DNA of 64,000 nt from Pedobacter sp. MC2016-05 (GTDB taxonomy: Bacteria; Bacteroidota; Bacteroidia; Sphingobacteriales; Sphingobacteriaceae), in assembly GCF_026239735.1 (NCBI RefSeq), contig NZ_JAPIVT010000011.1, positions 1 through 64,000 on the forward strand. The letters are read 5' to 3'. Each line of letters starts with the position of its first letter. Position 1 is the first letter of the stretch. Below are positions 20,156 to 22,055 of the stretch, one piece after another. A program made the translations under genes and the position numbers. Under the pieces are notes generated by a model. The model made no database searches. It was not told where the DNA came from and worked only from the letters and a program-made list of their open reading frames with translations.

Positions 20156-20950
20156 ATGAAACAATATTTAGATTTAATGCAACATGTGCTGGATCACGGC
20201 GCTCAAAAACACGACCGCACGGGAACAGGAACGATTAGCGTTTTCGGCTATCAAATGCGTTTCAATTTGCAGGAGGGCTTTCCGATGGTTACCACGAAGA
20301 AGCTACATCTAAAATCTATCATACATGAATTAATCTGGTTCTTGACTGGCGATACCAATATTAAATACTTAAAAGATAATGGCGTTCGCATTTGGGATGA
20401 ATGGGCAGACGAAGAGGGAAACCTCGGCCCAGTTTATGGTTCGCAATGGAGAAGTTGGCCAACGCCCGATGGACAATACATCGATCAGATTACCAACATC
20501 ATTAATACGATTAAAAACAATCCAGATTCGCGAAGAATTATTGTTTCTGCATGGAACGTAGCAGAAATAGAGAATATGGCTTTGCCTCCTTGCCACGCTT
20601 TCTTTCAGTTCTACGTAGCCGATGGAAAATTAAGCTGCCAACTCTATCAGCGTAGTGCCGATATTTTTTTGGGCGTCCCTTTTAATATCGCTTCTTATGC
20701 TTTATTAACCATGATGGTTGCACAGGTTTGTGGTTTAGAAGCTGGCGATTTTGTTCATACTTTAGGCGATGCGCATTTGTACAATAACCATATCGAACAG
20801 GCACATTTGCAATTAAGCAGAGAGCCGAAACCGCTTCCAACCATGAAAATCAATCCTGAAGTAAAAAGCATCTTTGATTTTAAATTCGAGGATTTTACAT
20901 TAGAGAATTACGAGGCACATCCACATATTAAAGGAGTGGTGGCGGTATAG
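20156..20950 (+). CDS. thyA: Thymidylate synthase
   Basis: ThyA methylates dUMP to dTMP using methylene-tetrahydrofolate, producing dihydrofolate. The protein has 264 residues from the ATG at 20156, the same length as E. coli ThyA; an upstream in-frame ATG at 20129 is rejected. The catalytic Cys is Cys146 in [12 protein letters not shown]. Other signatures are [12 protein letters not shown], the RRIIVSAWN phosphate-binding segment, [13 protein letters not shown] and [12 protein letters not shown]. It would normally neighbour folA, which recycles its product. Here a broken four-helix-bundle gene lies between them. Confidence 0.97.
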
Positions 20951-20954
20951 GTTA

Positions 20955-20999
20955 TTAGTCATTTGATCAATAGTTCATTAGTTCATAAGTATCATTAGG
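20955..20999 (+). repeat. Left inverted flank of the four-helix-bundle unit
   Basis: This run of TTAGTC/ATTAGTTC words begins five bases after the thyA stop. It matches the reverse complement of 21457-21501 over about 45 bases with some mismatches; the core ATAGTTCATTAGTT is nearly identical. Confidence 0.7.
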
Positions 21000-21067
21000 C
21001 TAAACGCTTATAAAAAATCTCTATTTATAAATTCATCCCTTATAATTAATGTGTGAACGAAATAATT

Positions 21068-21447
21068 ATGAGTTACAATCGAATTGAAGATTTGGAGGTG
21101 TATATGCTTGCTGAAAATTTATCAAATGAAATTTGGGATATTACAACGACATGGGACTTTTTTGCTAAAGATACCATACGAAACAAATTTGCAGGGCTGC
21201 AGATTCAATTAGTGCAAATATTGCCGAAGGTTATGGTCGTTTTCATTTCAAGGAAAATAAGAACTTTTGTTACTACAGCAGAGATTCTATTTTAGAAACC
21301 AAGTCTTTCTTCAGAAAAACGCGACATAGAGGGCTCGTCAATGAAGAAATTTACACACAACTTTTTGCCAAACTAGAAACAGTACATATAAAGCTTAACG
21401 CTTATATAAAATACATTGGAAAAGGTCAGTCTGGCATGAAATCATGA
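21068..21447 (+). pseudogene. Frameshifted four-helix-bundle (23S rRNA intervening-sequence type) protein
   Basis: The first frame starts at ATG 21068 (MSYNRIEDLEVYMLAENL) and is coherent to about 21190. The family pattern continues in another frame from 21193 (RAADSISANIAEGYGRF, then NKNFCYYSRDSILETKSF) to the stop at 21445-21447. One base is missing near 21191-21193. The whole would be about 126 residues, normal for the S23 ribosomal/IVS-associated family. Such proteins were first seen encoded inside 23S rRNA intervening sequences; their function is unclear. Inverted repeats lie on both sides, and the unit separates thyA from folA. A sequencing error cannot be excluded. Confidence 0.85.
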
Positions 21448-21456
21448 ACAGATAAA

Positions 21457-21501
21457 CCTAAGGAACAAATGAAACTAATGAACTAATGACCAATGAACTA
21501 A
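21457..21501 (-). repeat. Right inverted flank of the four-helix-bundle unit
   Basis: This is the reverse complement of the left flank and includes the heptamer-like words AATGACC and AATGAACT. The folA start codon at 21486 lies inside it. Confidence 0.7.
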
Positions 21502-21995
21502 AAAACCCTTCACTTGCTATAGCAGTTGCGGTAGGTGAAAACTTCGCCATAGGAAAAAACAACCAGCTTTTGTGGCACATGCCTGCCGATTTAAAGTTTT
21601 TTAAACAAACTACTTCTGGGCACACGGTTGTAATGGGCCGCAAGACCTTCGATTCTGTCGGTAAACCCTTACCAAATCGCAGAAACATTGTCATCACGAG
21701 AGATTCATCATTAAAAATCGATGGCGTTGAGATCGTGAATAGTCTTGATGAAGCATTAGAAATTACCAAAGCAGAAGAAAAACCTGTTTTTGTTGTTGGT
21801 GGTGCGGAAATTTATCGCCAGGCTTTACCAAAAACGGACCTACTTTATTTAACTACAATTCATCATACTTTTGACGCTGATACGTTTTTCCCAGAGATCG
21901 ACAGAAATGATTGGGAAGTTGTGAGCAGCGATCCGCATAAAGCTGATGAGAAAAACAAGTATGATTATACTTTTGAGGTACTTAAAAGGAAGTAA
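21486..21995 (+). CDS. folA: Dihydrofolate reductase
   Basis: DHFR reduces dihydrofolate to tetrahydrofolate with NADPH, completing the thymidylate cycle begun by ThyA. The protein has 169 residues. Landmarks: AIGKNNQLLWHMPADLKFFK (active-site acidic residue in the PADLK region), HTVVMGRKTFDSVGKPLPNRRNIV for NADPH binding, and FVVGGAEIYRQALP. The start codon lies in the right-hand repeat of the preceding unit, so the first five or so residues (MTNEL) appear repeat-derived. No better in-frame ATG is seen. This is the expected thyA partner gene. Confidence 0.96.
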   Translation: MTNELKNPSLAIAVAVGENFAIGKNNQLLWHMPADLKFFKQTTSGHTVVMGRKTFDSVGKPLPNRRNIVITRDSSLKIDGVEIVNSLDEALEITKAEEKPVFVVGGAEIYRQALPKTDLLYLTTIHHTFDADTFFPEIDRNDWEVVSSDPHKADEKNKYDYTFEVLKRK

Positions 21996-22006: not shown

Positions 22007-22055
22007 CGTCATTGCGAGGCACAAAGCAATCTTAATGCGTTTGCTATAAAGGTTT
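22007..22055 (+). repeat. REP-like element, single copy
   Basis: It begins CGTCATTGCGAGGCACAAAG and continues with a degenerate version of the AAGCATTCGCTATAGATTAAAGG extension seen at 28444-28497 and 28880-28934 on the opposite strand. The family unit is therefore about 50 bp. Confidence 0.75.

Follow-up and report, generated by a model that had tools for sequence, protein, structure and literature searches.

A heptamer-armed four-helix-bundle unit between thyA and folA of Pedobacter suggests a common mobile element built around PF05635 proteins

The unit between thyA and folA

The window analyzed here is a 64,000-nucleotide stretch of Pedobacter sp. MC2016-05 (contig NZ_JAPIVT010000011.1). 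On its forward strand, which carries all parts of the unit, thyA (thymidylate synthase; 20156 to 20950; PF00303, E 5e-132) is followed by folA (dihydrofolate reductase; 21486 to 21995; PF00186, E 5e-65), and a unit of about 550 nt occupies the junction between the two. Its left arm (20952 to 20999), delineated by repeat search, gapped alignment, and the lag-7 autocorrelation of the family, consists of degenerate TCATTAG/TTCATTAG heptamer-octamer repeats and begins 1 nt past the thyA stop codon. Its right arm (21457 to 21503), complementary to the left and delineated by repeat search and gapped alignment, includes the folA start codon and the start of a folA N-terminal extension. The repeat search recovered two inverted pairs, 20952-20983/21473-21504 (81%) and 20970-20996/21468-21494 (85%), which gapped alignment merged into these imperfect arms with a score of 42, compared to 25 at the 99th percentile of dinucleotide shuffles and a maximum of 23 around 45 other genes of the window.

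Between the arms lies a four-helix-bundle (PF05635) pseudogene that is frameshifted near 21190-21200. Its N-terminal part (21068 to 21200, starting at an ATG at 21068), recognized as an open reading frame and by comparison with intact orthologues (L098-L125), is in a different frame than its C-terminal part (21178 to 21447, with the stop codon at 21445-21447), of which 21178-21399 matched profile positions 32-105 of PF05635 with 66.1 bits (curated cut-off, 33.8). Imperfect inverted repeats bracketing a frameshifted four-helix-bundle gene, as the original prediction had described them, were thereby confirmed at practically the same coordinates; what it missed is that each arm is made of degenerate heptamers in tandem and that such arms are general for the protein family. 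A missing stem between the flanks, which it had named as counterevidence, was not observed: in the predicted fold of RNA 20940-21515 both ends pair (46 pairs between the terminal 70 nt), but the whole fold was only modestly better than shuffles (z -1.71, 4/100). An Rfam scan of 20900-21560 returned no match.

PF05635 proteins are known from intervening sequences (IVS) of 23S rRNA, as in Leptospira and Coxiella, and to our knowledge the genes annotated as “23S rRNA-intervening sequence protein” or “four helix bundle protein” have no established function. In relatives, scores against the PF05635 and TIGR02436 (23S rRNA IVP) profiles reached 137 bits. PF05635-type genes were present in 31 of the 41 genomes searched, often in 4-12 copies. 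In all six copies of the present genome (L001-L007), at sites including argC|argD, tig|clpP, metH|metF, and thyA|folA, stops or frameshifts interrupt the gene, whereas the copies of relatives are mostly intact (12 broken of 75 among the copies listed in 14 genus genomes; Fisher p 6e-5). That all six are broken suggests a common dependency, e.g., action across copies or the loss of a partner. Judged from these sequences, the system looks dead in this genome while close relatives retain it; the window copy itself is dead, and its value lies in exposing a widespread class of IVS-like elements.

The thyA-folA junction in relatives

folA was found in 55 of 60 genus genomes, and 50 thyA-folA junctions were read. 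The two genes were adjacent at all 50, including those lacking the unit, so a separation of the genes in such strains, which the original prediction had named as counterevidence, did not occur. A PF05635 gene lay in sense at 16 of the 50 (the window and 15 other species), and at 17 there was no insert, with the TGA stop of thyA and the folA start overlapping as ATGA; the remaining junctions had short spacers, relics, or inserts of other kinds, either hairpin-forming or resembling toxin-antitoxin modules. The claim that the unit is an insert is upheld in that genomes without it keep the two genes tightly coupled. The ATGA overlap could be either ancestral or derived, as the tree is compatible with both. 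TCATTAG-type arms were retained at every gene-bearing junction, including those of the deeply diverged L123 and L125, so the lack of repeats in relatives that would also have counted against the prediction was not seen. At filled junctions the thyA stop marks the beginning of the left arm, and the folA start falls inside the right arm, which therefore encodes the beginning of the folA N-terminal extension.

On a thyA+folA tree, presence of the gene changes at least 11 times, pointing to frequent losses, and visible remnants of the unit persist in L102 and L116. The intact orthologues had a dN/dS of 0.031 (11 species), compared to 0.055 for folA and 0.014 for thyA, indicating that the protein is functional where present. 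The insert is thus neither a one-off nor recent but an old inherited copy of a general class.

Other insertions at this junction were also observed. In L108, L115, and L119, two genes similar to a RelB/YafQ-type toxin-antitoxin pair replace the four-helix-bundle gene, and in L116 an antitoxin-like remnant lies alongside the C-terminal end of that gene. Among species without the unit, palindromes follow directly after the thyA stop, of the form CCCCCCAGCCCCCT...AGGGG in L099, L114, L117, and L129 and CGTCATTGCGAGG... in L127 and L135, as if the junction swapped one hairpin-forming insert for another. A GTCATTGCGAGGCACAAAGCAATCTTA repeat lies just downstream of folA in the window (about 22007-22035), and the same type fills the thyA-folA slot in other species.

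Arms and mobility across the PF05635 family

Arms were measured in genus and class relatives, 80 GTDB loci (mostly Bacteroidota), viral contigs (22 loci from IMG/VR), cyanobacterial plasmids, further MAGs, and Pseudomonadota. At a score threshold of at least 26, they were found at 77/104 loci of genus and class relatives, 75/96 GTDB loci, 16/18 viral loci, 22/25 further MAG loci, 19/31 Pseudomonadota loci, and 7/8 cyanobacterial plasmid loci, i.e., at about 60-90% of loci per set, compared to 0.7-1.7% of shuffles in the sets for which shuffles were run. The arms were specific to their own gene copy: 69% of true pairs but only 3% of mispaired arms passed, as did 0/45 of the window genes. They are tandem degenerate heptamers, with an autocorrelation inside arms of 0.617 (lag 7) and 0.610 (lag 14) against values near 0.27 for most other lags, and protein subfamilies differ in their heptamer (e.g., AGTATCA, GAGATGT, AGTCCGA, and AAGACTA), with GGGAACA/GGGAGTA-type units in cyanobacterial copies.

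By chance alone, heptamer-like microsatellites might also grow in intergenic DNA and happen to pair on either side of a small gene with no relation to them. Heptamer arrays are known in Bacteroidetes, Cyanobacteria, and Beggiatoaceae (PMC4679880), and solo arrays and palindromes are present both in the genome studied here and at the thyA-folA junctions of other species; however, the arms are inverted rather than direct and recur in several phyla. The rates for mispaired and shuffled arms led us to reject chance pairing, which we regard as highly improbable.

To guard against repeated counting of one site, 194 cellular loci were grouped into 59 clusters of junctions with no neighbor in common. 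Arms far above chance were found at 45 of these independent junctions, and at 50 the gene lay in sense between two co-directional genes, as it did at 95/104 loci of relatives and 89/97 GTDB loci; among the window genes, co-directional triplets made up only 19/51. The arms started a median of 2.5-6.5 nt past the upstream stop and ended 6-13 nt before the downstream start. In phage contigs (IMG/VR), the gene is often antisense between consecutive genes, e.g., between apparent terminase subunit genes in L253 and L266; one query of the INPHARED phages gave no match. Cyanobacterial plasmids carry it antisense in nrdB|nrdA and between two secretion-transporter genes and in sense in cas6|cas4. The repeat-armed design is a rule for the PF05635 family and is found again in dozens of bacterial and phage operons. 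As a separate observation among the IMG/VR contigs, L249 and L257, like L253 and L266, have antisense heptamer-armed four-helix-bundle genes in phage structural and terminase-like operons.

Similarity of the arms between different junctions climbed with protein identity, from a baseline score of 9.5 to 32 for proteins at least 70% identical (reverse-complement control, about 7). This agreement between arms and protein at unrelated junctions indicates that arms and gene travel as one unit. One subfamily was found at fadB|fadA (G004 and G007), at fadA|acd (G005 and G011), and, in Mucilaginibacter, before the gene for the iron-sulphur subunit of succinate dehydrogenase; another was found at argC|argD and argD|argF, with the neighboring genes at these sites named according to our reading of their sequences. 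In G011, gene-less arm remnants sit at fadB|fadA, with an intact element of the same family next door in fadA|acd, and the situation in G008 is comparable. At that junction, the tightest element-free genomes have 26-33 nt. Gene conversion between two resident copies could also account for hops between adjacent junctions.

The constraint on the thyA-folA copies could instead reflect a regulatory gene useful to the host, with little or no mobility, whose product would bind the arms of its own unit and couple or tune expression of the two operon genes. Purifying selection stronger than that on folA would fit such a role, as would vertical inheritance of the gene at thyA-folA, tig-clpP, argC-argD, and metH-metF and the abutment of the arms on stop and start codons. 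Yet presence is patchy, with repeated losses or replacements, all six copies here have decayed jointly, and the family occupies about 80 different junctions with unrelated functions as well as phages and plasmids, so that we consider an essentially immobile regulatory gene quite unlikely.

The unit is instead probably a decayed, long-inherited copy of a mobile cassette composed of a left heptamer arm, a PF05635 gene, and a right heptamer arm. Such a cassette sits in an intercistronic slot, after the stop codon of the upstream operon gene and ahead of the downstream start codon; its arms and gene move together, and each protein subfamily probably recognizes the heptamers of its own arms as a nucleic-acid ligand. 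Within the operon mRNA, pairing of the arms, which is seen in silico, might loop out the gene and bring the host stop and start together, and this proximity would allow coupled genes to tolerate the insert; the stem might conceivably also be cut by RNase III, as in 23S IVS. A host function would likewise be consistent with the vertical inheritance and strong constraint of many copies. No transposase, target-site rule, or target-site duplication was found for the cassettes, and no transposition was seen.

RNA pairing, 23S intervening sequences, and other known elements

The original prediction proposed that the unit may be an intervening sequence of the mRNA proper, in which RNase III cuts the stem and the gene-bearing loop leaves the thyA-folA message, as it leaves 23S rRNA. 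In the window and 15 orthologues the ends pair in the predicted RNA (19-47 pairs), and Bacteroidota copies are in sense. If pairing of the sense RNA had kept the arms, G-U pairs should exceed A-C mismatches, yet 141 stems had 93 G-U versus 123 A-C (p 0.05), i.e., no wobble enrichment, which argues against selection for RNA pairing. The stems of 145 elements in sense orientation between co-directional genes were also compared by strand: the antisense duplex was slightly more stable than the sense one (mean, -30.6 versus -29.5 kcal/mol; p 0.02), and with the missing G-U enrichment this suggests that the RNA hairpin may be incidental. The antisense copies of phages and cyanobacteria disfavor a purely RNA-borne, intron-like life cycle and, together with the G-U counts, speak against sense-RNA pairing as the main force keeping the arms. 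A cut would moreover split a two-gene message for which no ribosome-like scaffold holds the halves together. The putative excision from the mRNA is only weakly favored, and as an account of the unit we consider it unlikely. DNA-level recognition or copying of the arms is preferred, with any effects of an RNA hairpin being secondary.

Kinship with 23S IVS, also part of the original prediction, gained strength from the Coxiella IVS, in which tandem GACAGAT heptamers precede the S23 ORF and RNase III cleaves at the first repeat (PMC4990558). The units are alike in their PF05635/TIGR02436 protein, their complementary ends, which form a stem around the ORF, their patchy distribution, and their size (428-444 nt in Coxiella versus about 550 nt here). 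They differ in that the window unit lies between the operon protein genes thyA and folA, outside 23S rRNA, and in that arms of its class abut stop and start codons and are family-specific heptamer arrays. An Rfam scan of 20 Pseudomonadota loci gave no matches and no rRNA-embedded copy. Because the Coxiella heptamers lie beside the S23 gene, the 23S IVS looks like an rRNA-inserted version of the same element.

These comparisons suggest that a common, apparently undescribed mobile element has the “ribosomal RNA insert” protein at its core. Whether PF05635 proteins generally are cores of previously undescribed heptamer-armed mobile elements that lie between operon stop and start codons in bacteria and phages, with subfamily-specific arms and with 23S IVS as the rRNA-inserted minority, is a proposal on which we are evenly divided. 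The fixed anatomy (gene-specific inverted heptamer arms, operon slot, and stop/start abutment) provides a definition and a candidate nucleic-acid ligand for PF05635 and brings 23S IVS and operon-borne copies under one view. The core operons thyA-folA, tig-clpP, metH-metF, and fadBA thus host hairpin inserts that could affect expression.

Other known systems share parts of this anatomy. The PF05635 family is homologous to Avd, the accessory protein of diversity-generating retroelements (PMC10053308), and the relative 2GSC was retrieved; in contrast to those retroelements, no reverse transcriptase or template/variable repeat pair lay beside the copies inspected, and the neighbors of the window copy are thyA and folA. 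STRR-type arrays in cyanobacteria, TAACTGA repeats, and, in the Nostoc tRNA-Leu intron, the heptanucleotide P6b hairpin (PMC3488679) are likewise degenerate heptamers that are intergenic or form hairpins, but these reports concern repeats without a PF05635 gene, whereas here inverted arms bracket one. Among open-access PMC papers, a literature search retrieved none that describes heptamer arms flanking operon-borne PF05635 genes and none that links 23S IVS, Avd, and heptamer repeats.

Transposons and MITE-like elements resemble the cassettes in their inverted ends and gene-less derivatives, and inverted repeats, empty sites, and arms together with the gene at unrelated junctions were all observed. 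The cassettes differ from MITE-like elements in that their ends are tandem heptamer arrays varying by subfamily, with no transposase and no defined target-site duplication. Elsewhere in this genome, gene-less TCATTAG-type hairpins lie between co-directional ORFs (L018, L020, and L022) and are possibly MITE-like derivatives. At G000:C30:3497-3875 (L010-L013 and L024-L027), a AACTAATGAACCAATGA repeat array with inverted partners lies upstream of an ORF, without a four-helix-bundle gene.
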